Part shown: piece by piece, positions 6,723 to 60,088 of the stretch | Layout: the number at the start of each line of letters is the position of its first letter | How positions within the stretch are numbered: position 1 is the first letter of the stretch | Assembly: GCA_037447655.1 (NCBI GenBank) | Contig: JBBHKE010001062.1 | Location: 42,131-106,130 of the forward strand | Direction: 5' to 3' | Length of the DNA stretch: 64,000 nucleotides | DNA from: Zygnema cylindricum | Taxonomy: Eukaryota; Streptophyta; Zygnematophyceae; Zygnematales; Zygnemataceae | Translations under genes and position numbers: made by a program | The notes under the pieces: model-generated | Databases searched by the model: none | What the model was told of the DNA's origin: nothing | What the model saw: the letters and a program-made list of their open reading frames with translations, nothing else

Positions 6723-7810
6723 AGATTGGTACCCTATTCGGTGGGCCCATAACCTGAAACTCTGAGACCTCCATAAGTCCTCAGAGTGGACAGCTTCCAA
6801 GAAGCCTCTAGGATAATCCTGACCCCTTTGTGTTTCAGCAAAAACAATTGCCTCCCCGGCAGACAAAAACTCTGACCACCTGCACCCTTGTGAAGGCAAG
6901 ACTCCCCTGAGTCTGTAGCAAAAAGAATCTCTGAATTTGCTCCCCTGAGCAGTAAGTTATGGAGTGTCAAAGTTAACCTTTTGTACAGAAGCTCTCTGGG
7001 AGAGAGGGTCCTATCTCCTAATTTTTCTAAGTCATATCTCTCTCACAGACTCTATCTATTGATGTACGGAACCAATCAAGATACAGTTCCGTACGCAAAA
7101 GTACAGCTGTCGGTGTACTTTATGTACGAACATTGTACGACATGGCCTAAATGTCGACACATGTCATATTTGGATTCGATGCCATAATCTCCGGAGATTC
7201 CGCGATCCAACGTAATTTTGCCACGTGTCATCCGATGTGGCGATGGCCACAAACCGACGAAATCTTCTTCCGCAATCTCGGCGCTAATTCCGGCCGTCCG
7301 ATTAAATTCGGATTTAATGTAGCCGTAATAAATACATACGCGGTATTCGTTTCACTTACAAAATAAATGCGCGGTATTGATTTCTTGTTCGTACCAGAAT
7401 CCGTACTTTATATATTACCGGATCTATGTATCCCGTAATCTATTACAGTTAAATGATTTAACGTACGTATACATATTTAAATAAATATCAAACTATATAC
7501 TACGTAACACTAATGCTAGACTTAACGGCTAAGGCTACCGGCTACTAAATGTCTGCCGGCCAGTAGGTACAAGGATCAAATCCTGTGGCCGGCATAATCT
7601 TTTATATAAATAAACCCCTAACTAATTTAAATTTCCCGTAAACCTTTGGATAGCCTAGGTAGCCATGGCTCTAGCTCCCCCTCCAATTTCTCAGTGACTG
7701 CGACAAGTTTGAGAGTTTGGAGAGAGAAGTTAGAGGTAGACTGCCTCGGCTTCTTTCTATATTTCTATTTAGACCTAGAAAATACTAAAAATGGACCATT
7801 AATTTCTACA
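6723..7810 (-). mobile_element. Copia element A: LTR, primer site and 30 bp of leader
   Basis: A minus-strand LTR of 1056 bp (6755-7810, TG...CA on the minus strand), followed by a primer site GGTGGGCCCATAACC at 6740-6754 and about 15 bp of leader, then the 25S junction. The LTR shares the family's start, the GAGCCATGG block, the GTAC cluster (about 7070-7145), the 'GATTCTTTTTGC' box with its hairpin, and a tRNA-like module at 7517-7594. Its left boundary with coding sequence of element B at 7810/7811 shows that A inserted into B. The rest of A is absent. Confidence 0.85.
7517..7594 (+). other. tRNA-like module in LTR A
   Basis: Antisense to the element. A perfect outer stem TGCCGGCC...GGCCGGCA (7553-7594) encloses a T-arm-like hairpin, with a 7-base ATCAAAT loop where tRNAs have TTCRANT. 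Upstream, AACGGCTAAGGC resembles a D-arm/A-box. It is not a standard tRNA: T54 is A, and the cloverleaf is incomplete. Confidence 0.5.
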
Positions 7811-9447: not shown

Positions 9448-10447
9448 TGCAATACTGTGTCCTCCATTGGACTACAGAATACAGGAAGCCGCTAGATAAT
9501 TATTAGCTAACCCACTTTCAATGGCGACCATTGCTACCCAAGTAGACGAGCAGACAATCAGACTCCACCCTTGTGTAGTCTAGACTCCTTTGAGTCCGTA
9601 GGAAAAAGAATCTCTAAAAACGCCCAGCCAAGCGATAAGTTATGAGGCAGTAAAAATGCCAATTTGTACAAACTCTCAAAGGGTGAGGTGGCTACCTACC
9701 AAAATTTTCTAAGTCTTGATTCCCTCTAATAACTTGTATCTACTGAAGTACCGACCAATCAGATTACTCTACCGTACCAAAAAGTACTACTGGCGGTGTA
9801 CCTTTTGTACGGCATAAGTAGGACAAGGCTATTGAGCGGACGCGTGTCTGCTTTTCACTCGTCCGTACGTTCTACGGAATTCCCACGACCGAATGCCATC
9901 TCTCCACGTGGCTCCGGGTCATGCCACGTCACAAAACGCCAAAGTGACCTTTTCGGGATCTCGGCGAAGAGGTATGCCGTTGGATAAGAACCGGCTTTAA
10001 ATATTGTCCGTCGAAACAAATGTCAGATTCATTTGTTTCGTGCGGGATCCTATCCGCACTGATTTTAACCTGTTCTATGATTTTACATTTACATTTGCGT
10101 TAATCGGATTAGGGGACGTAACATACATTAAATATGAATCACACCCTATATACTTTAGCGAAGATCTACGCCAGACAAGTTAGAGCGGACGTCTACGCCA
10201 CGCTCTACCGGTCGGGGGTTCGAGTCTTGCTGGACTCAACCTTTTTGTAGAGAGTGACTTAAGGTCACTCTCTAACCCTATGTTTGGAGCTGAGGCAGCC
10301 ATGGCTCCATCACTCTCTCTCTCTCCTTCATTGACTACAACAAGTATGGGGGTAAGAGAGAAGAGATGAAGGCAAGCTGCCTGTATGTTTCTTTTTCCGC
10401 TAATATATTAAGACCTAGAAAAAACCCAAAAACTATTTATTTCAACA
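9448..10447 (-). mobile_element. Copia element B, 5' LTR
   Basis: A 1000-bp minus-strand LTR from TG at 9448 to the start of C's coding remnant at 10448. The primer site on its inner side (9433-9447, GGTGGGCCCATAACA) again matches the anticodon arm of initiator tRNA-Met. It has GTAC repeats (about 9748-9840), a GGACTCAAAGGAGTC-type hairpin (about 9585-9600) and a tRNA-like module at 10166-10238. It belongs to a different subfamily from A, D and F. It joins directly to mid-integrase sequence of element C, so B inserted in C. Confidence 0.85.
10166..10238 (+). other. tRNA-like module in LTR B
   Basis: Antisense to element B. It reads GTTAGAGCGGACGTCTACGC, then GGTCGGGGGTTCGAGTC and TGCTGGACTC: a D-arm end, an anticodon-like loop (CTACGCC), and a T-arm with a canonical TTCGAGT loop in the correct spacing. 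The acceptor stem pairs poorly, so it is a tRNA relic or mimic rather than a tRNA gene. Confidence 0.55.
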
Positions 10448-12532: not shown

Positions 12533-13457
12533 TGTAGGGAAAAATGTGGACTTAAAGAAAATAGTGACTAGAAAATAAAGGAGTGTTGAAAAATGAGTTT
12601 TATGTATTTTCTAGGTCAGGATATAAATTAAAGACAATATATCAAATGGTTAGGCTCAACACTCTCTCTCCCTAGCTAACATATTTGTTGTAGTCAGTGA
12701 TAACTAGTTAAAGAGAGATGGAGCCATGGCTGCCCAAGCAGCCAGAAAAGGAGGATAGACTAGCTGTTAGCAAAAAGACTGACGGACCAAGGATTTTTAT
12801 CCTGGTCCCTATAGTCAATAGCCAGTAGCCGGTAGCTTTGTCCTATAGTCTAGGACCAGTGCTACGATATATAGGGCATGATAATTATTTAAACAAGTAC
12901 TAGCTGATTAAGCCGATTAACGGATTTTTATGGCTTTATTATACAGAGTGTTAAAATATTTCTATATGAAGGCGGTCGACTAATTTGAACGGCGCATATT
13001 AAATGCCGGTTAACATCGGACGGCTCGTATTCAAGCCAACAATTCGGAGTAGCCGTTTTGGATATTTTCAGACGTTGTGTCACTAGGTGCTATGTGGCGC
13101 CTCGTCATCCAATTACACAATTTGCAGGGAACCCGGAGACAAGTCCAAAAGTGACAGCATTCCCTCCATGGCCATGTCGTACAATGGTCGTACAAAAAGT
13201 ACATCGGCAACTGTAATTTCTTGTAGTGTACACTCTTCTGATTGGATTCGTACATCAGTAGTAAGGGGTTTTAGAGAGGGGTTCTATGACTTAAAGTTTT
13301 TCTGGCAGATAGTCGCCTTTCTCTCTTTGAGGGCTTGTATAAAAATTGGCACCTTTGCCATTTGATAAGTTATCACCTGGTAGGGCGTTTTCTGTGATTC
13401 TTTTTGCATATGGCTCAAAGAGTCCAACCTTCACAACGTAAAGGGAGTCAGAATCTT

Positions 13458-13754
13458 TGTAGAAACTAATGGATTTATTAGTATTTTCTAGGTCTAAATA
13501 GAAATATAGAAAGAAGACGAGGCAGTCTACCTCTAACTTCTCTCTCCAACTCTCAAACTTGTCGCAGTCACTGAGAAATTGGAGAGGAAGCTAGAGCCAT
13601 GGCTACCTTGGCTATCCTGAGGTTTACGGGAATTTTATGTTGGGGTTTATTTATTTATTTAAAAGGTATTTGCTGGCGGCAGGATTTGATCTATGTACTT
13701 ACCAGCCGGCAGACAGGAAGTAGCCGGTAGCCTTAGCCATTAAGTCTAAGATTA
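13458..13754 (+). repeat. Partial tandem duplication of the D 5' LTR
   Basis: A second copy of the first ~297 bp of the LTR placed directly before the full LTR. The junction at 13753-13758 lies where LTR-internal GTGTTA meets the LTR start TGTAGAAA, and the second copy starts TGTTAAAC. The terminal target duplication ATCTT lies outside the extra copy, so the duplication is part of the inserted element or arose within it. Confidence 0.85.
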
Positions 13755-14801
13755 GTGTTAAACTAATGGATTTATTAGTATTTTCTAGGTCTAAATAGAA
13801 ATATAGAAAGAAGACGAGGCAGTCTACCTCTAACTTCTCTCTCCAACTCTCAAACTTGTCGCAGTCACTGAGAAATTGGAGAGGAAGCTAGAGCCATAGC
13901 TACCTTGGCTATCCTGAGGTTTACGGGAATTTTATGTTGGGATTTATTTATTTATTTAAAAGGTATTTGCTGGCGGCAGGATTTGATCCTTGTACCTACC
14001 GGCCGGCAGACAGGAAGTAGCCGGTAGCCTTAGCCATTAAGTCTAAGATTAGTGTTAGATACTATATAGTTCGATAATTATTTAAATACGTATACGTTCG
14101 ATAATTCATTTAACTGTTACGGATTACGGGATACATAGATCCGGTACGGATGACGGTACGGATTACTAATCAATACCGCGCATTTGTTTCGGAAGTGAAA
14201 TAAATACCGCGCATCTATTTATTACGGCTACGATTAAATCTGAATCTAATCGGACGGCCGGGATTAGCGCCGAGATCGCGGAGGAAGATTTCGGCGGTTT
14301 GTGGACATCGCCACATCGGATGACGCGTGGCGAAATTCCGTTGGATTGTAGAATCTCCGGAGATTATGGCACCGAATCCGGATTTGACATGTGTCGACAT
14401 TTAGGCCATGTCGTACAATGTCCGTACCGAAAGTACACCGGCGGCTGTACTTTTGCGTACGAAACTCAATTCTGATTGGTTCCGTACATCAGTAGATAGA
14501 GTCTGTGAGAGAGATAGGACTTAGAAAAATTAGAAGATAGGACCCTCTCTCCTAGAGAGCTTCTGTACAAAAGGTCAACTTTGACCCTCCATAACTCACT
14601 GCTCAGGGGAGCAAATTCAGAGATTCTTTTTGCTACCGACTCAGGGGAGTCTTGCCTTCACAGGGGTGCAGGTGGTCAGGGTTTTTTATCTGCCAGGGTG
14701 GCAGTTATTTTTGCTGGAACACAAAGGGGTCAGGATTATCCTAGAGGCTTCTTGGAAGCTGTCTACTCTGAGGACTTATGGAGGTCTCAGAGTTTCAGGT
14801 T

Positions 14802-17800
14802 ATGGGCCCACCCTCTAGGGTACCAATCTTTAATGGAACTGGCTTCATATACTGGGAAAGTATGATGATAGGAGCTCTATGCGAAAAAAGGTTTTGGGGG
14901 ATAGTGAGTGGACGGTTGGGGCGTCCATCAAGTCTTGGAATTCCTCCAAGGTTTGGAGGAACCAGATTCACCAGGAAAGAGGACCCACCTTCAACGGAGG
15001 AAACAAAGGAAGGAGAGGTGGTGGACAAAGGAAAGGAGAAGGAGACGACCACACCAATAGCAACTGGTTCCACATTCATGTCACCTATTCCGAGGAATGA
15101 GTAGAATGATACTGAAACCTGGGACTTCAACAATATGGCGGCAAAGCACTTCATCCTACGCTATCTCACTCAAGGACTTGCATGTCCTCATTTGCAGGTA
15201 GAAAGAGCATCCGATCTCTGGATGGCTCTCATAGAGATGTACCGAAGTGGTACGATTCAGCAACAACAGTTGGCTGATCAGAAAGTTAAGGAGTATGTAT
15301 ACAAAGGGGGAAATATGTTGGATTTTTGCAATGAGCTTGCTACACTCTTCATGGAGCTACAGAGTGCGGGAAAAGATTTTAGTGAAAAAGAAAAGGTTAA
15401 CTGTTTACTGATAAAGTTACCTGATGAGTTCGTGAACATAGTTTACCGTGTGCATGACTTGCCTGACTCAAGGTGGATATAGAACTCAGTGGTAGGGATG
15501 ATTCTCGTTCAAGAGAATACAATTGAGATCCGAAGGGGAGGAAAGAGTGGCCAAGCCTTGGCAACAGCGACTGATTGGAGGAACAGGGATTCCCGAAAAC
15601 TGGTCGGAAACTATGGGGGTAGGGAGCAGAAAAAACAGGCAGATGAGTTCGAACCAAGGGCTCCCAAAGGTCTATGTCATTTTTGTAAGGAACCGGGGCA
15701 CTATATGGCAGAGTGCACTAAGCTAACCGAGCTGAGGTTAAAGGAGGGGCAGACCGGTGGTACCCCGAGAGGAAAGAAAAAGGCCCTTGTCACAGAGGTA
15801 CTTGAGGCTGAATCCGAGGACGAGGACGATGAGCTCCTTTTGGATGAGGAGTTGGAGGCGAAAAAAGAGGTCGAAATTCCACGGAGGCAGAAATGTGCTT
15901 ACGGTGGATTGAAAGGTGAAGCAGACTGGATTGTAGATTCAGGTGCCTCCATGCACATGTGTAAGGATAGACACCTGTTCACTAAGATAAGAAAGATTCC
16001 CACCGTAGAGATAGAGTACGGGGATGGGAGGATAGTCACCACTACTCTTGTAGGATCGGTAGATCTAAAAGTGTTAGTAGAAGGAAAGACATCCATATTA
16101 ACATTCTCCGATGTATTGTTTATTCCGGAGCTGAACAAAAATCTTATCTCTACATCAATATTAGATGATAAGGGTTTTTTTCTAGCACTAGGGAAGGAGT
16201 CTTTACTGCTAGTTTTGAGGATGATGTCTATTTCATTGCTGAGAAAGGTAGCCATGGGATGTTTAGGCTGATCTTAAGTAATGAAAAGAAGAAACTTTAC
16301 TATGTTGGTGTTCATTATATTATGATGTGGCATAAGAGGCTTGGGCATGTGAATCTAGATAAGTTAAGAGAGATGAAAAAGATGGGAGTGGTGGAAGGGA
16401 TTCAGTTCAGTGAGAGTGATGATATAAGTGATTGTAGTGGATGTGCTCAAGGTAAAGCACACAGATTACCCTTTCCTAAAACAGCCACCTATAAGGGAGA
16501 AAAACTTCTAGATCTAGTACACACAGATATTTGGGGACCGGCTAGAGTGCCCTCACCGGGGGGGAAGAGATTTATGATGACTATAACTGATGATTGGTCT
16601 CGATATTCCCGGGTATATTTTTTGAAAAACAAGTCCGAAGCTGAGGATTGTTTTAGACAATATAAAGCATGGAGCGAAAAACTCCATGAAACTCCAATCA
16701 AGAGAGTAAGGAGTGACAATGGTGGAGAGTATACTTCTAACCACTTTGAGGATTTTCTGAGGGAAGATGGGGTTCAACACCAAAAGACAGTTCCAGAAAA
16801 TCCGGAACATAATGGGGTAGCTGAAAGGTTAAATAGAACACTAAGTGATAGTGCTAGAAGTATGTTGTCAGATAAAAAGATAGGAAAAAGGTTTTGGGCA
16901 GAAGCAATGAACTGTGCTAATTACCTCAAGAATAGAGTTCTTACTTCAGCTATAAAAGACCAAACACCTTATGAGAGATGGACAGGCCGAAAACCAGACA
17001 TATCTCACTTGAAGGTTTTCGGCAATCAAGTATTCAGTCTAGATACTGATCGGTCCAATTGGAAGCTAGATCCTAAAGGAAAACCAGGATACTTATTACG
17101 ATATGATGAAGATGTTAAAGGATATAGAGTTTATGATTTAAAAAGGGAAGATATAATCTTAGTAAAGCATCTAGTAGTTATGGATGAAGGAAAGTCTGTG
17201 GATCCCTTCAAATATACAAAGTCAGTAAAAATCAGATTTGAGTCAGAAAATTCCGATGACTTTGAGCTTCCTAACTATCCAGGTTTTAGAGAAGATGACA
17301 TTCTTGCAGGAACAAATCAGACCGAAAAGGACTCGGCTGTGGAAACTCCAGTGACAACTCTACTCGAAGCGGAAGACGTGGTGGAAATTGATTCGGAATC
17401 AAGGGATAGGGGAGAAGCCGAGTTTGTTCGAAAGAATCCACGAGAACCATCTATTCCGGCATCAAATTTTGAGGGGGGGAGGAGAAGTAGCAAAAGACTG
17501 CAAGAAAAACAGGTTAATAACAAGGTAACTAAACTATCTCATCAAGATGAACCTCAATCTTATAGAGAGGCGATGACTTGTCCAGAAAGAAACCGGTGGA
17601 AGACAGCCATCAATGAGGAGATGGCTTCAATCATGGCAGCCGATACTTGGGAGCTGGTGGACTGTCCACCTAACCGAAAACCAATTGGTTGTAAGTGGGT
17701 CTTCAAATTAAAACTGAACCCAGATAACACAATCGAACGCTACAAGGCCAGATTAGTGGCAAAGGGATTTACACAAAAGGAAGGAATTGACTACGAGGAA

Positions 17801-19135
17801 ACCTTTACCCCGATGGTCAGATTTTCCTCCGTCCGCATACTTCTCAGTTTAGCAGCGGCGGAAGACATGGAAGTGCATCAGATGGACATCAAGACAACCT
17901 TTTTGCATGGAGAATTGGAAGAGGAGATCTTCATGCGACAACCCGAAGGTTTTGTGGAGGAAGGAGAGGAGAGTAAGGTATGCCGGCTGATTAAATCTCT
18001 TTATGGTTTGAAACAGGCACCTCGACAATGGAATAAGAAGCTTGATGAGTTTCTTACCGGTCTGGGATATATTCGGATCAGCTCAGATCACTCAATCTAT
18101 GTTTTCGAAGATGAGGAAGGTTTGATATTTATTGCAATTTATGTTGATGATTTGCTTGTATTAAGTAAATCAATGGAAAAAATTAACAAACTGAAAACCG
18201 ATCTTAAGGGGAGATTTGAAATGAAGGATATGGGAGAAGCAAGATATATTTTGGGAATTCAAGTAGAGAGAGACCGGAAAAGGAAAATTATAAAACTGAC
18301 TCAAAAGGAAGCAATAGGGAACATGCTTGAAAAATTTCAAATGGATAAAGCTAATAGTTGTACAACTCCAATGGAGTTGAAGAAGGGAAGTGAGGGGAGT
18401 GAGGAAGAAGGAGTCATAGTCTTAGACGAGGATTTATCTCCTGATGAACAGAAGTTCATGCAGACTATTCCTTACAGGCAAGTAGTGGGAAGTCTAATCT
18501 ATTTTATGAATTGTACCCGGCCAGATTTAGCTCCAGCTGTAGGAGTGCTGAGTAGAAGTCTAAATGCTCCCACTAAGAAGGACTGGGAGGCAGCTAAGAG
18601 AGTCCTTAGATATTTGGTAGGAACTAGAGGTCTATGGTTGCATTTGGGTGGGGAGAATACTGACATCACTACTTCGAGTGATGCCAGTTATGGTGATGCT
18701 CCGATGAGGAGATGTACTTCTGGATATGTATTATATGTGGGTGATGGGGCTTGCAGTTGGAGTAGCAAACAGCAAAAGGTTATTGCTCAGTCCACCATGG
18801 AGGCTGAGTATATGGCCTCTTGCTCTGCTGTAAAAGAATTGATGTGGGTCAAGTCTTTGCTTGGTGAGCTTGGTCACCGTAAAAGTGGTGTGCATAAAAT
18901 ATTTTGTGATAATCAGGCAGCAATCGCTATTTCTGCCAATCCTAAACACCATTTTAAAGCCAAACACATGGACATCAGACTCAGCTTTGTTAGAGAGAAA
19001 GTAGAAAACAAAATAATCAGTTTAGAGTACAGACCAGATAGTGAGATGGTAGCAGATATGATGACCAAACCTGTGCCTTCCCCTAAGCTAATTTTTTGCA
19101 GGGAGAAGTGTGGTCTGAAATTAAAGATTGACTAG
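14802..19135 (+). pseudogene. Copia D gag-pol polyprotein, nearly intact
   Basis: Single Copia polyprotein opening at the ATG inside the primer site (14802; MGPPSRVPIFNG). Order: Gag; zinc knuckle CHFCKEPGHYMAEC (about 15678-15720); protease D-S-G-A-S (about 15930); pre-integrase HHCC; integrase with TDIWG, SDNGGEY and NGVAER as the D,D,E residues; RT with KARLVAKGF and YVDDLLVL; RNase H with SDASYGDAP and DNQAAI. Lesions: TAG at 15102, TAG for Trp at 15480, and a 1-bp deletion in a T run near 16178. The last frame is open for 958 codons (16259-19135). Retroelement replication is cytoplasmic with nuclear integration. Confidence 0.93.
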
Positions 19136-20307
19136 AAAATAAGGGGAGTGTAGAAACTAATGGATTTATTAGTATTTTCTAGGTCTAAATAGAAATATAG
19201 AAAGAAGACGAGGCAGTCTACCTCTAACTTCTCTCTCCAACTCTCAAACTTGTCGCAGTCACTGAGAAATTGGAGAGGAAGCTAAAGCCATGGCTACCTT
19301 GGCTATCCTGAGGTTTACGGGAATTTTATGTTGGGGTTTATTTATTTATTTAAAAGGTATTTGCCGGCGGCAGGATTTGATCCTTGTACCTACCGGCCGG
19401 CAGACAGGAAGTAGCCGGTAGCCTTAGCCATTAAGTCTAAGATTAGTGTTAGATACTATATAGTTCGATAATTATTTAAATACGTATACGTTCGATAATT
19501 CATTTAACTGTTACGGATTACGGGATATATAGATCCGGTACGCATGACGGTACGGATTACGAATCAATACCGCGCTTTTTTTTTCAGAAGTGAAATAAAT
19601 ACCGCGCATCTATTTATTACGGCTACGATTAAATCTGAATCTAATCGGACGGCCGGGATTAGCGCCGAGATCGCGGAGGAAGATTTCGGCGGTTTGTGGA
19701 CATCGCCACATCGGATGACGCGTGGCGAAATTCCGTTGGATTGTAGAATCTCCGGAGATTATGGCACCGAATCCGGATTTGACATGTGTCGACATTTAGG
19801 CCATGTCGTACAATGTCCGTACTGAAAGTACACCGGCGGCTGTACTTTTGCGTACGAAACTCAATTCTGATTGGTTCCGTACATCAGTAGATAGAGTCTG
19901 TGAGAGAGATAGGACTTAGAAAAATTAGAAGATATGACCCTCTCTCCCAGAGAGCTTCTGTACAAAAGGTCAACTTTGACCCTCCATAACTCACTGCTCA
20001 GGGGAGCAAATTCAGAGATTCTTTTTGCTACCGACTCAGGGGAGTCTTGCCTTCACAGGGGTGCAGGTGGTCAGGGTTTTTTGTTTGCCAGGGTGGCAGT
20101 TATTTTTGCTGGAACACAAAGGGGTCAGGATTATCCTAGAGGCTTCTTGGAAGCTGTCTACTCTGAGGACTTATGGAGGTCTCAGAGTTTCAATCTTTGC
20201 ATACTTGGGAGGCAGTTGATTTAAAAGGAAGAAGGGCATTTCAAATTATCATAGGGGCTTCAAGTAAGCTTCATTTTTTGTGTAACTATGGAGGTCATAG
20301 AATTGCA

Positions 20308-22609: not shown

Positions 22610-22749
22610 TGTTGAAAAAAGGTTATTAATATTTCGCTTCTATTTTCTAGATAGAATTTAAAGAAAGAGAGAGAGGATCAAAGGGACGCCATGGCAGCCA
22701 CCTTATTTAGAAGGTGGCAGATTGAAGTAGATGATATTTTTATGAAATG

Positions 22750-22820
22750 ATGCCTAAGTTCGGATTTGAACCTGGGTCTGTGTACTTCTGAGTAGTCGTA
22801 AGCCTTATCCACTAAGGCAT
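22750..22820 (-). other. tRNA-like module in LTR G (71 nt)
   Basis: On the minus strand it is exactly 71 nt. The 5' ATGCCTTAG pairs with 3' CTTAGGCAT (8 of 9 positions). An A-box-like stretch (TTAGTGGATAAGGC) and a B-box GGTTCAAATCC are in tRNA-like positions. The T-stem pairs weakly. Of all LTR copies this one has the most tRNA-like outer ends. Confidence 0.6.
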
Positions 22821-22991
22821 TTAATAAAAAAAACACTTGACGGGTAATTCATTCAAACGAAACATGTGAATCGACGGCGGGCACGCACGCAAATCGCGCG
22901 CTCATTGAACCGTGTAAATATACTTAATCGAACAAACGACATCGCAGCCGCCAACCTGAAATGACCTTTTGGCGGCTTTTGGAAATAGCGT

Positions 22992-25102
22992 TGCAACTCT
23001 GAGACCTCCATAGGTCCTCAGAATGGATAGCTTCTAAGAAGCCTGTAGGATAACCCTGACCCCTTTGTGTTTCAGCAAGAATAACTGTCACCCTAGCAAA
23101 CAAACACTTTGACCATCTTCACCCTTGTGAAGGCAAGACTCCCCTGAGTCGATAGCAAAAAGAATCTCTGAATTTGCTCCCCTGAGGAGTACATTATGGA
23201 GGGTCAAAGTTGACCTTTTGTACAGAAGCTCTCTAGGAGAGAGGGTCCTATCTACCAAATTTTTATAAGTCCTATCTCTCTCTAAAACTCTATCTACTGA
23301 TGGATGACACCAATCATATTACATTGCCGTACACAAAGGTACAGCTGCTGATGTACTTTATGCACGAATATTGTACGACATGGCCTAAATGTCGACACAT
23401 GTCATTTCCGGATTCGGTCCCGTGATCCTTGGAGATGCCGCGATCCAACGTAATCGTGCCACGTGTCATCCGATGTGGCGATGACCTAAAACCGCCGAGA
23501 TTCTCTTCCGCGATCTCGGCTTTCTTCCCGGTCGTCCGATTGAATGCAGATTTCAATCGTAGCCGTCATAAATACTTGCGCGGTATTCATTTCGTAACTG
23601 AAGCAAAATGCGTGTAACTCTGAGACCTCCATAAGTCCTCAGAGTGGACAGCTTCCAAGAAGCCTCTAGGATAATCCTGACCCCTTTGTGTTTAAGCAAA
23701 AATAACTGCCACCCTGGCAGACAAAAACGCTGACCAACTTCACCCCTGTGAAGACAAGACTCCCCTGAGTCGATAGCAAAAAGAATCTCTGAATTTGCTC
23801 CCCTGAGCAGTAAGTTATGGAGGGTCAAAGTTGACCTTTTGTACAGAAGCTCTCTGGGAGAGAGAGTCCTATCTTCTAATTTTTCTAAGTCCTATCTCTC
23901 TCACAAACTCTATCTACTGATGTACGGAACCAATCAGAATTGAGTTCCGTACGCAAAAGTACATATGCCGGTGTACTTTATGTACGGACATTGTACGACA
24001 TGGCCAAAATGTCGACACATGTCAAATCCGGATTTGGTGCCATAATCTCCGGAGATTCCACAATCCAACGGAATTTCGCCACGTGTCATCCGATGTGGCG
24101 ATGGCCACAAACCGCCGAAATCTTCCTCCGCGATCTCGGCGCTAATCTCGGCCGTCCGATTAAAGTCGACTATAATCGTAGCCGTAATAAATACATGCGC
24201 GGTATTTGTTTCATTTACGAAACAAATGCGCGGTACTGATTTGTGTCCGTACTGTAAGTCGTACATTTACATTTTACTGGATCTATGTATCCCGTAATTC
24301 ATTTCAGTTAAATGGTTTATCGCGCGCATAACCATTTAAATAAATATCAAACTATATAGTACGCAATACTACTGCTAGACTTAACGGCTAAGGCTACCGG
24401 CTATTTCCTATCTGCCGGCCGGTAGGTACATGGATCAAATCCTGCCGCCGGCACATACCTTTTAATTAAATAAATAAACCCTAACATAAAATTCCCGTAA
24501 ACCTCAGGATAGCCAAGGTAGCCATGGCTCTAGCTTCCTCTCCAATTTCTCAGTGACTGCGACAAGTTTGAGAGTTGGAGAGAGAAGTTAGAGATAGACT
24601 GCCTCGACTTCTATATTTCTTTTCAGACCTAGAAAATACTAATAAAACCATTAGTTTCTACATTGCGCGATACTCGTTTCTTATCCATACCGTAATCCGT
24701 ACCTTTACATAACTGGATCTATGTAGCCGTAAACATCCGTCGTTAAATGAATTATCCTACGTAGCAACATTTAAATAAATATCAAACCTTATAGTACGTA
24801 TCAGTAGTCTTAGACTTAACGGATAGGTCTACCGGCTACTGGCGCCTTAACGGTCGGCAGGTATCACGATCAAATCCTGTATCCGACATATAGCAAATAA
24901 GTTACCTATCCGTAAATCAAGTAATATATTTCCCGTAAACCTCTGGTAAGCCTAGGTAGCCATGGCTCTAGATTCCTCTCCAACTTCTCAGTGACTGCAA
25001 AGAGTGTGGGAATTGGAGAGAGAGTTTAGAGGCAGACTGCTTCAGCTTCTTTCTACATTCAATTAGACCTAGAAAATATTAAAAGATCCATCGATTTCTA
25101 CA
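22992..25102 (-). mobile_element. Solo Copia LTR H (split by solo LTR I)
   Basis: Minus-strand LTR in two parts, 22992-23612 and 24663-25102 (about 1060 bp), flanked by perfect 5-bp repeats AGCGT (22987-22991 and 25103-25107). No internal domain, so it is a solo LTR from LTR-LTR recombination. It sits within the LTR of G. tRNA-like module at 24811-24888. Confidence 0.88.
23613..24662 (-). mobile_element. Solo Copia LTR I, inside LTR H
   Basis: A 1050-bp minus-strand LTR starting TGTAACTCTGAGACC at 23613 and ending at 24662. The flanks ATGCG (23608-23612) and TTGCG (24663-24667) match at 4 of 5 positions. It is very similar to LTRs A, D and F and splits H, so it is the youngest layer of this three-deep LTR stack. 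tRNA-like module at 24375-24453. Confidence 0.88.
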
Positions 25103-25584
25103 AGCGTCACTCGATGAAACGTGGCGGCACCTTATTAGACACTGGAGAAGTTGGGAGGAGGAACCATGGCTCCCGATTTGAAAGGTGTCACTTGCCTTGT
25201 CGTACAAAAGTCGTACAAGAAGTAAATCGGCCAATGTACCTTCTGGTACTGTATAGTCTTCCTATTGGTCTAGGGTTTAGAAATAGGTAGCTGAGAGTAG
25301 GCAGACTAGGACTTAGCAATTTTTGAGGCGCCTCTCTCCAGATGACTTTCTGTATAAATAGGTCGTCTTTCGACTGCCATAACTAATTGCTCAGGGGAGC
25401 AAATTCAGTGATTCTTTTTGCATTGGACTCAAAGGAGTCTTGTCCTCACAGGAGTGAGGCTGGTGAAAGTCATTGCCTGCCAGGGTGGCATTTATTATTG
25501 GGGAAACCAACGTGGGTTGATGCTATCCTAGTGGCTACTTGTGAACTGTGCATTATGTGGAGCAACGGAGCCCACAGATTTTCA

Positions 25585-35686: not shown

Positions 35687-37943
35687 GGGTGTGTCCCCAT
35701 GTGTTCAAGTAAGGGTTTTTTTCCATCGTTTACACAAAAAATGGGACTTGCAACGACAAAATATTACGCAGTACGAAAAATGGGCAAAAACACAAGTACG
35801 TTTTTCGTCATCTTGGAACTTAGAAGGTACGACAATTTGGCGTTATTATTATCGCGACCCACTTCCAGCTCATCTTCACACTTGCATTGGAATCAAATCG
35901 CGACCTGATTTTTATCAACATAATACCCTATTGACTAATAGAAAATCGGGATTGCACGCGTCAAACCTTTTCAATAACTTTAAACGACGGGGGGTACACT
36001 GTATTTTTTTCCCTGCTCGTCACGCGCATGTACGTACGAAAATTGAAATTCTATAGGCTCCAATGCCACACAGAATTCGCAGATCAAAAAAGAACCTAAT
36101 CTAGATAGTGTCGACTCCAACTTGATATAAACCCAAATGATTGACCCCTTGACAATCAGAACCCCATTAACAGCTTCACTCCTGTGAAATAAGACTTTCT
36201 GTGTGCTCAGTTCCACCACAGAATGCAAAGTTAGAATATGAGATTTGGACACATTCACCCACTTTGACTTTCCCTTAGAAATGCAGCAACCCAGGCAGGA
36301 AAAAATTCTTACCTACTACACCCGTGTGTAGCTTGGACTCCCTTGAGTCCGCGGCAAAAAGAATCACTGAAAATGGTCAACTGAATTGATAGTTATGGTT
36401 GGCCAAAGTTTGCCATTTATACAAGGTGCTCTCTAGGAGAGACAGCTACCTACCTGAAATATTATAAGTCCTAAACCCCTCTCTAAACCCTCTAGTACTG
36501 AGGTACGGACCAATCACATTACTGTATAGTACATAAAGGTACAGGTGCCGGTGTACCTTTCATACGGCCATCGTACGACATGGCTAAAAAGTCAACACAT
36601 GTTCTATCGGGATTCGCTCTATAATCCCCGGAATTTCTGCTTCCAAATCTTATCTCTCCACGTGGCGCCAGGTCATGCCACGTCAAAAAACCGGTACCGT
36701 ACAAAAAAGTACAGGTGTCGCGGTACTTTCTGTACGAACATAGTACGATATTGCCATAATGTGACATTTGTCACATCCGGATCTGTTGTGTTCCGTTCCG
36801 TAGATTCCACAACCTTTACGATGTCGCCACGTGTGATCTGGAGAGGTGACGTCCGCAAACCGCCAAAATTATCCTTCTCGCGAAGGCGGCGCTAATCACG
36901 GTTGTCCGATTTATTTCGGCATTAATACGGACCGTCGAAACAAATGTCCGTACTATTTGTTTCGTCCGGTACTTTATAGTACAACTATATCTATGCCATG
37001 TAAACCGTAATCTACTTAAATGGAAAAACCCTACTTAATACTATTTAAATATCTACCGAACCAAATACATATTAGCACTAGTCCTAGACTAACCGGATAA
37101 GGCTGACGCCTACTGGTTACTTGACGGACGGTAGGTAGCAGGATCAATTCCTGGGTCCGTCAAATACCTTTTTGGTAAGTCTACCAAATCTACACCCTTT
37201 CTTCATAGAGAGCCTAGGCATCCATGGCTCTAGCTCCCTGTCCAGCCTCAAGTGACTACAAACAAGTGTGGGGGCTTGGTGAGGGGAGTTAGAGGCAGAC
37301 CGCCTCAACTCTTTTTCTATCCTAATATAGACCTAGAAAATACTCAAATATCAACAAAAATGACGAACATGAACGGAAAAAAAGTTGTTGGGGTCTCGGA
37401 CCTCCACTTTCATTCACGGGTCCTTTTCAAAATTTTACATCGTCCTCGTCTCCCCCCCTCATTCTCACTCGACCGCTCCTCTTTCTCTCTTGTTTACACG
37501 AGATGCAGCAATTATAGTATCAAATGAAAGATTTTTTTCTCTTTTCTTTTGAATATTTTTGGTCCTGAGTTTGATGGCATATGGAATGATAAACGATAAG
37601 AAAACGAAATCGGGAAGCCATGGCGGAAAATCTACGTACTGATGACGTCACATGGTAGCATGACTTCGCTATGTCACAAAACCCTAAACTTCTACAATGT
37701 CACAAAAAACCTTGACGTCTTGCCGTTTTTGTAGACGTCACCAATTTTAGGAAGTTTCGTAGTCGTCTACATTTTGTTTCGTAGACTGTCGCACATTTTG
37801 TAGACCGTCTACAACTGTCACATATTAGAAGTAAATGAAGGCGCATGTAATGATTGACATGGGCACACTTTGAAAATACACCGTAAAATCTGCGCTAAAA
37901 TCCAAAGTAACGTTCAAAGTTTCGGTTACATGGGAACACGCCC
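35687..37943. mobile_element. Harbinger-like inverted-repeat element P, with LTR J inside
   Basis: Left end GGGTGTGTCCCCATGTG and right end (reverse complement) GGGCGTGTTCCCATGTAACC, flanked by TTA (35684-35686 and 37944-37946). The left part is related to the right half of element Q (shared blocks near 35700-35830 and the GGCTCCAATGCC block near 36057). The right part is related to L. About 1.1 kb without the LTR, and non-coding. Confidence 0.6.
36184..37356 (-). mobile_element. Copia LTR J (minus strand)
   Basis: Diverged LTR of the same superfamily. The right edge is clear (TCAACA at 37356; TGTTGATATTTGAG on the minus strand). The left edge, about 36184, is inferred from spacing to the GGACTCAAGGGAGTCC hairpin at about 36340-36356. 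GTAC clusters are doubled (36485-36570 and 36695-36750), perhaps an internal duplication. tRNA-like module at 37085-37162. No target duplication found. Confidence 0.65.
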
Positions 37944-51734: not shown

Positions 51735-52742
51735 TGCTGAAATTACTAGATTTACATGGTATTTTTTAGTTCTAAATATATTAGCGGAAAACGACAAGAA
51801 AAGTGCAGACGGTCTGCCTCCATCCCGTCTCTTTAGCCCCCATACTTGTTGTAGTCACTGAAGGAGAGAGAGAGAGAGTGGTGGAGCCATGGTTGCCTCA
51901 GCTCCATATGCAGGATTTAAGAGTGACATAAGTCACTCTCAACAAAAGGTTGAGTCCAGCAGGACTCGAACCTCCGACCGGCAGAGCGAGGCGTAGCCGT
52001 CAGCTCTAGCAAGTTTGTCGTAGGAACTCATTAAAATACATAGGGTGTGATAACTATTTAAACTGGCTTATGATCTTAAATCCGATTAATGGAATGACGA
52101 ATGAAAGAACATAAAATTAACTAATATATAGTGCGAACATGATCTCGCACGAAACAAATGAATCGAACATTTGGGTCGAAGACTAATATTAAATCTCAGT
52201 TTACGATCCGACAGCACATATGGCTGCCGGAATTCTAGAATGTTCACTTTGGCTTTTATCTGACGTGGCGTGACCTGGCAACACGTGGAGAGATAACATT
52301 CTGTCGCGAGAATTTCAGATAACATAAGGACGAGTTAAAAATGGACACGTCCCTTAATGGTTTTGTCGTACACATAATAGGCATAAAAGTACATCCGCCG
52401 TAGTATCTTTCTATACTGTACATTGATTTGATTGGATCGTACTATGGTAGATAGGGGTTGTGAGGGGGGGTTTAGGACTTCGAAACTTTTCGTAGAAAGT
52501 CATCTCTCTCATCGAGAGTTTGTATAAATTGGCATTTTTGCCACCCCATAACTAATCGGTTGGTTTGTCGTTTTCGGTGATTCTTTTTGCTACGGACTCA
52601 AGGGAGTCCAGATTGTCAGGGGTGCAGTCCTATTGTCAAATTTTGTGCTTGGGCAGCAGTGGTTGTGGTTGAAAGTGGGTTAGTTAAAAACAATCTAGAG
52701 GCTTCATGAATTATGTAGTCCAATGGAGGACACAAAATTGCA
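51735..52742 (+). mobile_element. Solo Copia LTR K
   Basis: 1008 bp, TGCTGAAATT...AAAATTGCA, flanked by perfect AAGAC repeats (51730-51734 and 52743-52747). Contains the GAGCCATGG block, a GTAC cluster (52368-52442), TATAAATT at about 52521-52528, the GATTCTTTTTGC box and a perfect hairpin GGACTC-AAGG-GAGTCC (52594-52609). Closest to LTRs B and C. tRNA-like module at 51951-52025. No internal domain. Confidence 0.9.
51951..52025 (-). other. tRNA-like module in LTR K
   Basis: On the minus strand: GCTAGAGC (D-arm end), a loop CTACGCC in the anticodon position, and GGTTCGAGTCC (a canonical B-box/T-loop). The T-stem pairs at 4 of 5 positions. The acceptor stem is not convincing. The anticodon-like loop resembles that of tRNA-Arg(ACG), a weak hint at origin. 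Confidence 0.6.
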
Positions 52743-54726: not shown

Positions 54727-55383
54727 TGTAGAAACTAATGGATTTATTAGTATTTTCTAGGTCTAAATAGAAATAGAAAGAAGCCGAGGCAGTCTATCTC
54801 TAACTTCTCTCTCCAACTCTCAAACTTGTTGCAGTCACTGAGAAGTTGGAGAGGAAGCTAGAGCCATGGCTACCTTGGCTATCCTGAAGTTTACGGGAAT
54901 TTAATACTAGGGTTTATTTATTTAATTAAAAGTTAAGCGCCGGCGACAGGATTTGATCCCTGTACCTACCGGCCGGCAGATAGGAAATAGCCGGTAGCCT
55001 TAGCCGTTTGGACTAGCTATAGTGATACATACTATATAGTTTGATAATCATTTAAAGATGTATACGTACGATAAATTCATTTAACTGTTACGGATTACGG
55101 GATACATAGAACCGGTACGGATGACGGTACGGATTACGAATCAATACCGCGCATTTGTTTCGGAAGTGAAATAAATACCGCGCATGTATTTATTACGGCT
55201 AAGATTAAATCTGAATTTAATCGGACGGTCGGAATTAGCGCCGAGATCGCGGAGGGAGATTTCGGCGGTTTGTGGCCATCGCCACATCGGATGACACGTG
55301 GCGAAATTCCGTTGGATTGTAGAATCTCCGGAGATTATGGCACCGAATCCGGATTTGACATGTGTCGACATTTAGGCCATGTC

Positions 55384-55460
55384 GTACAATGTCCGTACTG
55401 AAAGTACACCGGCGGCTGTACTTTTGCGTACGGAACTCAATTCTGATTGGTTCCGTACAT
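55384..55460 (+). promoter_or_regulatory. GTAC cluster plus CCAAT-type site in the F LTR promoter
   Basis: Six GTAC tetranucleotides in under 80 bp (CGTACAAT, CCGTACTG, AAGTACAC, CTGTACTT, GCGTACGG, CCGTACAT), with GATTGG (inverted CCAAT) between the last two. Similar clusters lie at the same place in every LTR here. GTAC is the core bound by plant SBP-box (SPL) factors; binding is inferred. Confidence 0.5.
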
Positions 55461-55771
55461 CAGTAGATAGAGTCTGTGAGAGAGATAGGACTTAGAAAAA
55501 TTAGAAGATAGGACCCTCTCTCCCAGAGAGCTTCTGTACAAAAGGTCAACTTTGACCCTCCATAACTTACTGCTCAGGGGAGCAAATTCAGAGATTCTTT
55601 TTGCTATTGACTCAGGGGAGTCTTGCCTTCACAGGGGTGCAGGTTGTTAGGGTTTTTGTCTGCCAGGGTGGCAGTTATTTTTGCTTAAACACAAAGGGGT
55701 CAGGATTATCCTAGAGGCTTCTTGGAAGCTGTCCACTCTGAGGACTTATGGAGGTCTCAGAGTTACAGGTT

Positions 55772-58700
55772 ATGGGCCCACCCTCTAGGGTACCAATCTT
55801 TAATGGAACTGGCTTCATATACTGGGAAAGTATGATGATAGGAGCTCTATGCGAAAAAAGGTTTTGGGGGATAGTGAGTGGACGATTGGGGCGTCCATCA
55901 AGTCTTGGAATTCCTCCAGGGTTTGGAGGAAGCAGATTCACCTTCAACGGAGGAAACAAAGGAAAGAGAGGTGGTGGACAAAGGAAAGGAGAAGGAGGCG
56001 ACCACACCAATAGCAACTGGTTTAGCATTCATGTCACCTATTCCGAGGAACGAGGAGAATGATACTGAAACCTGGGACTTCAACAATATGGCGGCAAAGC
56101 ACTTCATCTTACGCCATCTCACTCAAGGACTTGCATGTCCTCATTTGCAGGTAGAAAGAGCATCCGATCTTTGGATGGCTCTCATAGAGATGTACCGAAG
56201 TGGTACGATTCAGCAACAACAGTTGGCTGATCAGAAAGTTAAGGAGTATGTATACAAAGGGGGAAATATGTTGGATTTTTGCAATGAGCTTGCTACACTC
56301 TTCATGGAGCTACACAGTGCGGGAAAAGATTTTAGTGAAAAAGAAAAGGTTAACTGTTTACTGATGAAGTTACCTGATGAGTTCGTGAACATAGTTTACC
56401 GTGTGCAGGACTTGCCTGACTCAAGGTGGATATGGAACTCAGTGGTAGGGATGATTCTCGTTCAAGAGAATACAATTGAGATCCGAAGGGGAGGAAAGAG
56501 TGGCCAAGCCTTGGCAACAGCGACTGATTGGAGGAATAGGGATTCCCGAAAACCGGTTGGAAACTATGGGGGTAGGGAGCAGAAAAAACAGGCAGATGAG
56601 TTCGAACCAAGGGCTCCCAAAGGTCTATGTCATTTTTGTAAGAAACCGGGGCACTATATGGCAGAGTGCACTAAGCTAACCGAGCTTCGGTTAAAGGAGG
56701 GGCAGACCGGTGGTACCCCGAGAGGAAAGAAAAAGGCCCTTGTCACAGAGGTACTTGAGGCTGAATCCGAGGACGAGGACGATGAGCTCCTTTTGGATGA
56801 GGAGTTGGAGGCGAAAAAAGAGGTCGAAATTCCACGAAGGCAGAAATGTGCTTACGGTGGATTGAAAGGTGAAGCAGGCTGGATTGTAGATTCATGTGCC
56901 TCCATGCACATGTGTAAGGATAGACACCTGTTCACTAAGATAAGAAAGATTCCCACCGTAGAGATAGAGTACGGGGATGGGAGGATAGTCACCACTACTC
57001 TTGTAGGATCGGTAGATCTAAAAGTGTTAGTAGAAGGAAAGACATCCATATTAACATTCTCCGATGTATTGTTTATTCCGGAGCTGAACAAAAATCTTAT
57101 CTCTACATCAATATTAGATGATAAGGGTTTTTTTACTAGCACTAGGGAAGGAGTCTTTACTGCTAGTTTTGAGGATGATGTCTATTTCATTGCTGAGAAA
57201 GGTAGCCATGGGATGTTTAGGCTGATCTTAAGTAATGAAAAGAAGAAACTTTACTATGCTGGTGTTCATGATATTATGATGTGGCATAAGAGGCTTGGGC
57301 ATGTGAATCTAGATAAGTTAAGAGAGATGAAAAAGATGGGAGTGGTGGAAGGGATTCAGTTCAGTGAGAGTGATGATATAAGTGATTGTAGTGGATGTGC
57401 TCAAGGTAAAGCACACAGATTACCCTTTCCTAAAACAGCCACCTATAAGGGAGAAAAACTTCTAGATCTAGTACACACAGATATTTGGGGACCGGCTAGA
57501 GTGCCCTCACCGGGGGGGAAGAGATTTATGATGACTATAACTGATGATTGGTCTCGGTATTCCCGGGTATATTTTTTGAAAAACAAGTCCGAAGCTGAGG
57601 ATTGTTTTAGACAATATAAAGCATGGAGCGAAAAACTCCATGAAACTCCAATCAAGAGAGTAAGGAGTGACAATGGTGGAGAGTATACTTCTAACCAGTT
57701 TGAGGATTTTCTGAGGGAAGATGGGGTTCAACACCAAAAGACAGTTCCAGAAAATCCGGAACAGAATGGGGTAGCTGAAAGGTTAAATAGAACACTAAGT
57801 GATAGTGCTAGAAGTATGTTGTCAGATAAAAAGATAGGAAAAAGGTTTTGGGCAGAAGCAATGAACTGTGCTAATTACCTCAAGAATAGAGTTCTTACTT
57901 CAGCTATAAAAGATCAAACACCTTATGAGAGATGGACAGGCCGGAAACCAGACATATCTCACTTAAAGGTTTTCGGTAGTCAAGTATTCAGTCTAGATAC
58001 TGATCGGTCCAATTGGAAGCTAGATCCTAAAGGAAAACCGGGATACTTATTAGGATATGATGAAGATGTTAAAGGATATAGAGTTTATGATTTAAAAAGG
58101 GAAGATATAATCTTAGTAAAGCATCTAGTAGTTATGGATGAAGGAAAGTCTGTGGATCCCTTCAAATATACAAATCAGTAAAAATCAGATTTGAGTCAGA
58201 AAATTCCGATGACTTTGAGCTTCCTAACTATCCAGGTTTTAGAGAAGATGACATTCTTGCAGGAACAAATCAGACCGAAAAGGACTCGGCTGTGGAAACT
58301 CCAGTGACAACTCTACTCGAAGCGGAAGACGTGGTGGAAATTGATTCGGGATCAAGGGATAGGGGAGAAGTCGAGTTTGTTCGAAAGAATCCACGAGAAC
58401 CATCTATTCCGGCATCAGATTTTGAGGGGGGGAGGAGAAGTAGCAAAAGACTGCAAGAAAAACAGGTTAATAACAAGGTAGCTAAACTATCTCATCAAGA
58501 TGAACCTCAATCTTATAGAGAGGCGATGACTTGTCCAGAAAGAAACCGGTGGAAGACAGCCATCAATGAGGAGATGGCTTCAATCATGGCAGCCGATACT
58601 TGGGAGCTGGTGGACTGTCCACCCAACCGAAAACCAATTGGTTGTAAGTGGGTCTTCAAATTAAAACTGAACCCAGATAACACAATCGAACGCTACAAGG

Positions 58701-60088
58701 CCAGATTAGTGGCAAAGGGATTTATACAAAAGGAAGGAATTGACTACGAGGAAACCTTTGCCCCGGTGGTCAGATTTCCCTCCGTCCGCATACTTCTCAG
58801 TTTAGCAGCGGCGGAAGACATGGAAGTGCATCAGATGGACATCAAGACAGCCTTTCTGCATGGAGAATTGGAAGAGGAGATCTTCATGCGACAACCCGAA
58901 GGTTTTGTGGAGGAAGGAGAGGAGAGTAAGGTATGCCGGCTGATTAAATCTCTTTATGGTTTGAAACAGGCACCTCGACAATGGAATAAGAAGCTTGATG
59001 AGTTTCTTACCGGTCTGGGATATATTCGGATCAGCTCAGATCACTCAATCTATGTTTTTGAAGATGAGGAAGGTTTGATATTTATTGCAATTTATGTTGA
59101 TGATTTGCTTGTATTAAGTAAATCAATGGAAAAAATTAACAAACTGAAAACCGATCTTAAGGGGAGATTTGAAATGAAGGATATGGGAGAAGCAAGATAT
59201 ATTTTGGGAATTCAAGTAGAGAGAGACTGGAAAAGGAAAATTATAAAACTGACTCAAAAGGAAGCAATAGGGAACATGCTTGAAAAATTTCAAATGGATA
59301 AAGCTAATAGTTGTACAACTCCAATGGAGTTGAAGAAGGGAAGTGAGGGGAGTGAGGAAGAAGGAGTCATAGTCTTAGACGAGGAATTATCTCCTGATGA
59401 ACAGAAGTTCATGCAGACTATTCCTTACAAGCAAGTAGTGGGAAGTCTAATCTATTTTATGAATTGTACCCGGCCGGATTTAGCTGCAGCTGTAGGAGTG
59501 CTGAGTAGAAGTCTAAATGCTCCCACTAAAAGGGATTGGGAGGCAGCTAAGAGAGTCCTTAGATATTTGGTAGGAACTAGAGATCTATGGTTGCATTTGG
59601 GTGGGGAGAATACTGACATCACTACTTGGAGTGATGCCAGTTATGGTGATGCTCCGATGAGGAGATGTACTTCTGGATATGTATTATATGTGGGTGATGG
59701 GGCTTGCTGTTGGAGTAGCAAACAGCAAAAGGTTATTGCTCAGTCCACCATGGAGGCTGAGTATATGGCCTCTTGCTCTGCTGTAAAAGAATTGATGTGG
59801 GTCAAGTCTTTGCTTGGTGAGCTTGGTCACCTTAAGAGTGGTGTGCAGAAAATATTTTGTGATAATCAGGCAGCAATCGCTATTTCTGCCAATCCTAAAC
59901 ACCATTTTAAAGCCAAACACATGGACATCAGACTCAGCTTTGTTAGAGAGAAAGTAGAAAACAAAATAATCAGTTTAGAGTACAGACCAGATAATGAGAT
60001 GGTAGCAGATATGATGACCAAACCTGTGCCTTCCCCTAAGCTAATATTTTGCAGGGAGAAGTGTGGTCTGAAATTAAAGATTGACTAG
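55772..60088 (+). pseudogene. Copia F gag-pol polyprotein, nearly intact
   Basis: Same order as D: Gag, zinc knuckle CHFCKKPGHYMAEC, protease, integrase (TDIWG, SDNGGEY, QNGVAER), RT (YVDDLLVL) and RNase H (WSDASYGDAP). It starts at the ATG in the primer site. Defects: a 17-bp deletion near 55940 relative to D (frameshift in early Gag), protease site D-S-C-A instead of D-S-G-A (about 56888), and a 1-bp deletion near 58173 that splits integrase from RT. Long open stretches remain at 55878-58181 (the ATG at 55878 lies out of frame with the true Gag start) and 58292-60088. Less damaged than D elsewhere. Confidence 0.94.

Follow-up and report, generated by a model that had tools for sequence, protein, structure and literature searches.

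Antisense tRNA-like modules with a Pol III promoter-type architecture in the LTRs of Copia elements from Zygnema cylindricum

Among LTR elements that carry sequence of a small-RNA gene, the closest to the present case in print is Helenus, a group of small non-autonomous elements of 311-1263 bp with tRNA-like LTRs (Kojima 2024, PMC10886601). According to the part of that paper relevant here, boxes A and B are conserved in Helenus, tRNA function is mostly not expected, and the promoter is proposed to transcribe the element. Cassandra, as characterized in the same source, is a non-autonomous TRIM with a Pol III transcript that runs from the 5' LTR to the 3' LTR (PMC10886601). Kojima also reasoned that the autonomous partners of such elements have to rely on Pol II and would hardly have long stretches of LTR in common with them, and remarked that not a few Repbase LTRs resemble part of a tRNA (PMC10886601). 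Longer LTRs with pieces of tRNA may thus already be present, unnoticed, in databases.

The window analyzed in this study is a stretch of 64,000 nucleotides from Zygnema cylindricum (contig JBBHKE010001062.1, positions 42,131 to 106,130). An earlier note had described a 70-80-bp antisense tRNA-like segment in its Copia LTRs, and our analysis found such a module at 14 positions, one of them a tandem duplicate, in 13 Copia LTRs of about seven lineages, with all 14 modules antisense to their own LTR. The module-bearing LTRs are about 1 kb long, and the module lies ~180-295 bp from the LTR start in most cases, 139-207 bp in LTR N, 131-223 bp in LTR O and 249-336 bp in LTR M, which has a 48-bp insertion. 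The letters A-O are the naming of the present analysis and may differ from the LTR letters of the earlier note; the lineages (A/D/E/F/H/L/M, I, J, B/K, C, N and O) were grouped by similarity and no tree was used.

What these LTRs have in common with Helenus, as far as the published description goes, is tRNA-derived sequence inside the LTR, although modules C, I and O would not reveal it by themselves, and the conservation of boxes A and B (12 of the 14 B boxes deviate from the pattern at no more than one position, and nine modules combine both boxes with a T-run). Helenus is described as a non-autonomous TRIM of ~1 kb or less, whereas the LTRs reported here are those of Copia elements with gag, integrase and RT domains, of which D-F and L-M are about 6.5 kb long; and the Helenus promoter is placed to transcribe its element, an orientation implied in the source, whereas here all modules are antisense and 12 have a T-run of their own (PMC10886601). 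With Cassandra, as described there, the shared trait is small-RNA gene sequence with a Pol III promoter inside the LTRs, but that sequence is 5S rRNA and the element non-autonomous, in contrast to tRNA-type, antisense modules in Copia elements of the autonomous kind. No 5S rRNA sequence was found in the LTRs, and Rfam scans of the window listed only an LSU rRNA match. The comparison with a tRNA analogue of Cassandra made in the earlier note was given up: the unit opposes a Copia element with gag, integrase and RT, while Cassandra is small and its promoter would transcribe the element. Searches of the open-access literature turned up no description of a tRNA-like unit that is antisense to a Copia LTR and ends in a T-run.

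Two full elements of ~6.5 kb with Copia domains are present in the window. Element D-F (13458..20192, + strand; TSD ATCTT) has modules D and E in its 5' LTR and module F in its 3' LTR, and element L-M (54727..61190, + strand; TSD GTCAA) has its LTRs at 54727-55767 and 60102-61190. Assignment to Copia (Pseudoviridae) follows from an integrase located before RVT_2, a gag match, which was obtained in L-M only, LTRs with TG..CA ends, and 5-bp TSDs, which were exact at four of the seven sites inspected (ATCTT, GTCAA, AAGAC and AGCGT). Gag-pol is continuous in neither copy: the internal coding region of D-F and the gag-pol of L-M each consist of two ORFs, so the copies in the window may not be intact, and "autonomous" refers here to the kind of element, not to these copies themselves. 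The primer-binding site GGTTATGGGCCCACC (14798..14812, + strand) is complementary to the anticodon arm of tRNA-iMet, as is the site GGTTATGGGCCCA of the Copia elements. Relatives of the elements were found neither in viral contigs (protein and PBS pattern) nor in genome contigs (protein). In the 5' LTR of D-F (13458-14797), the initial 297-298 bp, with the module, are duplicated in tandem, which is not the case in the 3' LTR. Module D is therefore a duplicate inside one 5' LTR and not an independent copy.

Module-bearing LTRs outside these two elements include LTR A (6755..7810, - strand), followed by the primer-binding site GGTTATGGGCCCA; LTR B (9448..10447, - strand); LTR C (12584..13457, + strand), which element D-F interrupts near the 3' end; LTR J (36198..37352, - strand; ends not fixed); the solo LTR K (51735..52742, + strand; TSD AAGAC); and LTR O (62734..63842, + strand; ends approximate). 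The remaining ones form a three-level nest at 22612-25584, with H inside G+I inside N. The 5' part of LTR N (22612..22991, + strand) carries module N and appears to be separated from the 3' part (25104..25584, + strand), which is followed by the PBS-like GGTTATGGAACCA at 25585, by the solo LTR G+I (22992..25102, - strand; TSD AGCGT), and G+I is in turn split by the solo LTR H (23613..24662, - strand), whose flanks differ at one of five bases. In both inner insertions of this nest, the distance to the A box of the recipient LTR, on its upstream side, is at most ~175 bp.

The module-bearing half of LTR N gave no blastn match to other LTRs of the window. Local alignments of LTR N scored above 50 of 50 shuffles against LTRs F, B, L and K, and not above all 50 shuffles against LTRs A, C and J; its other half contains block motifs common to the LTRs as well as the primer site. 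The segments 22612-22991 and 25104-25584 can thus be interpreted, from their sequence, as one strongly diverged, split LTR. That 22750-22820 lies outside any LTR, as the blastn blank nearby would have it, was considered and dropped because of the local alignments, the blocks and the primer site. The claim that the module persists across LTR subfamilies that are hard to align was borne out, as it is present in about seven lineages, including the LTR half with no blastn match. The blocks GAGCCATGGCTACC and TTGTAGTCA-like, at about LTR positions 100-160 of the alignment (e.g., window position 54861), are conserved equally to the module in most LTR lineages.

Several further features of the window were noted. 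At its left end, an LSU rRNA gene is represented by its 3' end; the repeat arrays beside it, at 1-5900, have periods near 49, 72 and 158 bp and are probably rDNA intergenic spacer. Inspection of 6169-6840 by eye suggested the order LTR A and its primer site, then tens of leader bases, then LSU rRNA gene sequence; the Rfam LSU rRNA match beyond 6755 overlaps LTR A and is probably spurious there. A second LTR element family is located at 26767-34563, with ends of ~980 bp that are 97.8% identical and an ORF with zinc-knuckle-like motifs (by eye), and its LTRs had no match in the tRNA CM, phage-tRNA HMM or architecture scans. A PARP-like ORF at 43746-44900 has ten relatives, of which those named by organism are from Mesotaenium ('Mesen1'), Closterium, Adiantum and Canna; this one gene would by itself point to a streptophyte alga close to the Zygnematophyceae as the probable host.

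The three T-arm strings named in the earlier note were all recovered in the window, GGTTCGAGTCC and GGTTCAAATCC once each and GGATCAAATCC six times. A search on both strands for the B-box pattern GGWTCRANYCC with 0 mismatches returned nine sites, all of them in modules (A, E, F, H, J, K, L, M and N). When one mismatch was allowed, B, D and I were recovered too, together with 13 sites outside the modules; the B box departs from the pattern at three positions in C and at two in O. The trinucleotide CTA is invariant in all 14 modules, extended to CTAC in ten. Module N (22751..22819, - strand) consists of the A-box-like TGCCTTAGTGG, the D-arm-like GGATAAGGC, CTAC and the B box GGTTCAAATCC at 22772-22762.

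In 12 of the 14 modules, representing five of the seven lineages, a run of four to six T residues begins 14-17 nt past the B box, approximately where a tRNA gene has its terminator. A T4 run is present in modules A (7515..7603, + strand), E (13958..14045, - strand), F (19352..19439, - strand), H (24376..24463, + strand), K (51944..52029, - strand), L (54928..55015, - strand; A box with 0 mismatches) and M (60351..60438, - strand). A T5 run is found in B (10168..10246, + strand), J (37085..37173, + strand; perfect 9-bp stem around the T-arm) and C (12772..12853, - strand), where it is retained beside a degenerate B box, and a T6 run in O (62865..62957, - strand), which has the degenerate B box GGATCAAATTT. 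Module D (13661..13748, - strand) is the duplicate of E, and the two modules that lack a T-run past the B box are N and I (24811..24905, + strand; B box with one mismatch). None of the 14 modules inspected has a T4 run between the boxes. The earlier description of the module as antisense and T-arm- and D-arm-like was accurate, but it passed over the T-run directly past the T-arm.

A T-run at such a distance occurs at 1.9% of antisense positions in 12 LTR stretches, modules included, and a naive binomial estimate for its presence in five of seven lineages is 5e-8, a value that overstates the case because the LTR lineages share descent; for the same reason the module counts are not independent. 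When the window was scanned for an A box and a B box, each with at most one mismatch, plus the T-run and no internal T4, nine sites were identified, all of them modules (A, B, D, E, F, H, J, L and M), and 20 shuffled windows yielded 0-2 sites each. Modules C, I, K, N and O failed this architecture scan, the A box of K being poor.

Upstream of the A box, TTTAAAT was found in 11 of 13 modules compared, with TTTAAATA in eight; B has ATTAAATA, and N has neither. CAC or CAA shortly before the A box was seen by eye in nine modules. Plant tRNA genes are reported, in the portion of the source used here, to have A+T-rich upstream regions and, in most cases, CAA motifs and poly(T) ends, whereas TATA boxes are present in 22-32% (PMC11700998). 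Alternatively, TTTAAATA, whose sense-strand reading in the LTR is TATTTAAA, may act as a TATA box for Pol II.

Two kinds of tRNA model were applied to the window. A tRNA CM built from a reference set of 22 eukaryotic tRNAs was used to scan both strands at E<=10, and all eight of its matches were modules (M, K, L, E, F, A, H and N, with E-values of 0.0029-0.39), including K at full length and M with 17.9 bits each and N with 11.1 bits (E=0.39); this whole-window scan missed the other six modules (B, C, D, I, J and O). With the filters off in a 2-kb stretch, J, which the default filters had missed, reached 15.6 bits through the terminal stem and T-arm only, and O gave nothing above noise. The same CM applied to a phage stretch gave 52 matches, 39 of them at 30 bits or more, and by comparison the modules, at 11-18 bits, are strongly decayed. 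No tRNA was called in the window by ARAGORN (bacterial setting) or by Rfam at the gathering threshold; in short stretches around the three of 14 modules tried with the Rfam tRNA model, M scored 12.4 bits (E=5), below gathering, and N and K had no match at E<=10. The modules are therefore not classed as tRNA genes, with neither a tRNA call nor a cloverleaf, as judged from the MFE folds and an alignment of the D, anticodon and T stems.

Profile HMMs were applied as well. With the HMM from the 22 reference tRNAs, N, B and K were on top (N first), an rRNA stretch was fourth, and L, M, F and H came next. A second HMM, intended to be independent of this reference set, was made from 34 of the 43 annotated tRNAs of a phage stretch, the record having been picked via the best BLAST hit of module B. 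Its ten highest-ranking matches were B, K, L, M, H, F, E, N, A and J, in this order (single E-values of 0.1 to 6); a non-module site came eleventh and D twelfth. Removal of the tRNA that had led to the record left the ranks unchanged, and inclusion of the nine left-out tRNAs placed modules at ranks 1-6 and 8-10, i.e., nine of the top ten. Conserved columns of the module map to tRNA positions A14, one G of G18G19, A21, T33, G53, T55, C56 and A58.

As a control, the first 380-480 nt of each LTR were dinucleotide-shuffled 300 times and scored with the two HMMs. The score was equalled by no more than two of 300 shuffles with at least one HMM in eight of the 11 LTR stretches tested, and hence the tRNA-model comparison with shuffled LTRs proposed in the earlier note came out above shuffles for these eight. 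Modules C, I and O had no score with either HMM and were missed by the CM as well, and A and J had no score with the first HMM; on the sense strand of the LTR stretches no score was obtained except 1.3 bits in O. That the modules are chance hairpins with T-arm-like letters is disfavored and would be hardly credible. Such an explanation could appeal to the missing Rfam tRNA matches of N and K even in short stretches, to the lack of BLAST matches of N and M in phage records and to the one-mismatch B boxes at 13 other places, but scans with two tRNA sets and the architecture scan pick modules and little else, and modules B and K align to a real tRNA.

The alignment of B and K to a real tRNA bears on their origin. 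Both align best to one phage tRNA, with scores of 30.0 and 26.0 (next best 16.0), which is annotated as tRNA-Thr(acg) and has the anticodon loop CTACGGA, read as anticodon ACG; in the phage A3Wally tRNA with these loop letters (11981-12055), the label Thr(acg) may denote the codon or be wrong. In a comparison with single reference tRNAs, K and B prefer bacterial/plastid tRNA-Arg(ACG), with scores of 23.0 and 21.5 against shuffle means of ~11. J also prefers Arg(ACG), N shows a tie between Arg and Cys, and E, L, M, I, C and O prefer other tRNAs, the best scores of C and L being equalled by 27 and 13 of 200 shuffles, respectively. Among the phage tRNAs, a tRNA-Gly was the best fit for F, J, I and O, and a tRNA-Ser for L.

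BLAST of module K matched 480 phage records (best E 0.3), and among the best 25 of these 480 matches 17 fell on annotated tRNAs and eight on no annotated feature. A control stretch adjoining module K matched seven phage records, all on coding genes, with a best E of 0.2, and the E-values of K thus prove nothing by themselves. Module B matched four records, namely one tRNA (E 0.02), one hypothetical protein and two with no feature; J had two weak matches in unannotated records, and N and M had no match in the phage records. The phage ACG tRNA and the Arg(ACG) preferences make an origin from tRNA-Arg(ACG) likely for B and K, judging from sequence similarity. The resemblance to tRNA-Arg mentioned in the earlier note is thus fair for B and K and may or may not apply to the remaining modules, which prefer varying tRNAs, though all modules occupy a homologous place in the LTR.

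A SINE may have been the donor of the module. Like tRNA-derived SINEs (SINE2), as described in part by Kojima (PMC10886601), the modules have a type 2 Pol III promoter and a decayed tRNA fold. SINE copies are dispersed outside LTRs and have their own TSDs. No module outside an LTR was detected in the 64-kb window by the tRNA CM, the phage-tRNA HMM or the architecture scan.

The earlier note also raised the possibility of an RNase P/Z substrate, and structured tRNA-like RNA from the modules, processed by these enzymes, seems distinctly improbable to us. Module K has six of seven acceptor pairs, counted from the CM alignment; the T-arm is enclosed by a 7-bp stem, fully paired in A, F, H and J and with a single wobble or mismatch in each of D, E, L and M; the 3' stem around the T-arm pairs better in register than when slid; and fold z-scores against shuffles were -2.2 to -3.5 in five of the 11 modules folded (J -3.5, K -3.0, C -2.9, B -2.6 and F -2.2; other six -0.3 to -2.0). 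Because single modules often fold stably, a role of the hairpin in RNA or DNA is possible. The alignment, in contrast, shows zero pairs with compensatory change in the D, anticodon and T stems, the acceptor stem having been left out because its 5' partner varies among lineages, and the three both-sided changes in the 3' stem were not above shuffles. The RNAalifold consensus has only -0.27 kcal/mol, yet four of its nine weak pairs have a both-sided change in some sequence; none of the 11 MFE folds is a cloverleaf, and the lineages differ. The ARAGORN and Rfam results likewise speak against such an RNA. The modules J (37085-37173), K (51944-52029) and C (12772-12853) have stable folds, each of them different. 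In summary, the modules exceed chance for tRNA profile and promoter architecture and do not for RNA covariation, which was looked for in the cloverleaf and the 3' stem. Neither the numbers of compensatory pairs nor the consensus structure favored a conserved cloverleaf or RNase Z-type minihelix, which was therefore dropped despite the good folds of single modules. With no covarying cloverleaf stems and no consensus fold, the RNase P/Z proposal received no support, but the stable T-arm stem of some modules leaves it a small probability.

It is also conceivable, though very improbable, that it is the sense strand that matters, with U3 RNA complementary to the T and D arms of the primer tRNA, similar to the 3' half of the bipartite PBS of Ty3. 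Ty3 does have such a site in U3, with tRNA-related sequence antisense to the tRNA, according to the part of the source consulted (PMC5371799). F and J match the iMet T-arm at 13 of 17 positions (shuffle mean ~9, maximum 13-14), I and O prefer plant iMet among the reference tRNAs compared, and the PBS of these elements fits the anticodon arm of tRNA-iMet. However, D-arm similarity to iMet was at shuffle level in the nine modules tested, in contrast to the D-arm complementarity to the primer tRNA described for Ty3 (PMC5371799); other T-arms were better matches for K, B and N, and none was a good match for O; the primer half itself is in no module; and the T-run would be left unexplained. A Ty3-type bipartite PBS for tRNA-iMet was thus rejected, with the D arm at shuffle level and the T arm matching in part in F and J.

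Along the alignment of the seven LTR lineages, mean identity is highest at the B box (0.57-0.65) and in the segment between the A box and CTAC, both included (0.60-0.70); it is ~0.3 in the variable region between these peaks and 0.14-0.28 just past the T-run. Values of 0.65-0.69 are attained in other blocks, which makes the module one among several conserved parts of the LTR. These data concern the possibility that the module is inert, the relic of a single insertion of a tRNA gene or SINE into an ancestral LTR that has since been inherited with the LTR and is unused by Pol III factors, which we consider somewhat unlikely. The homologous place of the modules in related LTRs means that their presence is explained by common descent, and a relic would also fit the degenerate modules C, I and O and the equal conservation of other LTR blocks. 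It fits less well with both boxes persisting in lineages that are poorly alignable past the T-run, with the T-run kept in five of seven lineages, or with the location of the variation, which lies between the boxes and, within the B box, mostly at positions that are variable in tRNAs too.

The module family is real and, judged by its sequence, is tRNA-derived and promoter-like. The reading that accounts best for the modules, and one that we hold to be moderately probable, is that of a tRNA-derived Pol III/TFIIIC promoter unit in antisense that would provide an open or bound site in the LTR. It builds on the observed sequence, orientation, cross-lineage homology, tRNA-profile scores and box-plus-T-run architecture of the modules; TFIIIC binding, transcription and any benefit to the element would be consequences of it. 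Architecture and profiles also favor the internal Pol III promoter of the earlier note, as promoter-like tRNA-derived sequence has been kept in the LTRs of several lineages. Against a promoter stand the poor A box of K, the lack of a T4 run in N and I, the HMM silence of C, I and O and the modules missed by the CM (six) and by the architecture scan (five), and the stable folds of F, B, C, K and J would not be needed by a pure promoter.

Under a Pol III/TFIIIC promoter reading, the U3 of a Copia ancestor would have acquired, in antisense, either a tRNA gene or the head of a SINE derived from one. Most of its descendants would have retained what Pol III needs, that is, the A box, the B box (T-loop motif), an A+T-rich upstream region with TTTAAAT, an inter-box segment free of T4 and, immediately after the acceptor position, a run of T4-T6, and would not have retained one common tRNA fold. 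Both boxes would be bound by TFIIIC, which would recruit TFIIIB and Pol III, and the product would be a short antisense RNA of ~90-110 nt ending at the T-run. Transcription of the element itself needs a Pol II promoter on the other strand, and the module cannot serve for it because of its opposite direction and, in most copies, the T-run within ~100 nt. The likely use would be an open Pol III/TFIIIC-bound site in each LTR, comparable to tRNA genes as boundaries; candidate uses include an open or insulating site bound by TFIIIC/Pol III, a short antisense RNA to U3 and an insertion target.

By analogy with Ty1, which integrates in a window of ~1 kb upstream of Pol III genes according to the portion of the source used (PMC5911963), the module could be an antisense U3 Pol III landing pad that brings Pol III factors to every LTR, maintains an open or insulated state there and attracts further copies of the family to the upstream part of older LTRs, an extension that we regard as improbable. 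Three LTR-in-LTR insertions were found, all upstream of the module of the host LTR: G+I into N, 172 bp from the A box; H into G+I, 148 bp upstream of the host A box; and D-F into C, about 605 bp. As signs of targeting these are suggestive only, and because ~70% of each LTR lies on the upstream side of the module, three cases prove nothing.

LTRs bearing tRNA or 5S sequence are known from tiny dependent elements that would copy themselves by Pol III. If the promoter reading is true, captured tRNA genes would have a second use, as a Pol III-bound site and not as the promoter of the element, and insulation of LTRs or steering of integration would become testable. Furthermore, tRNA-like matches in algal genomes may be pieces of LTRs.
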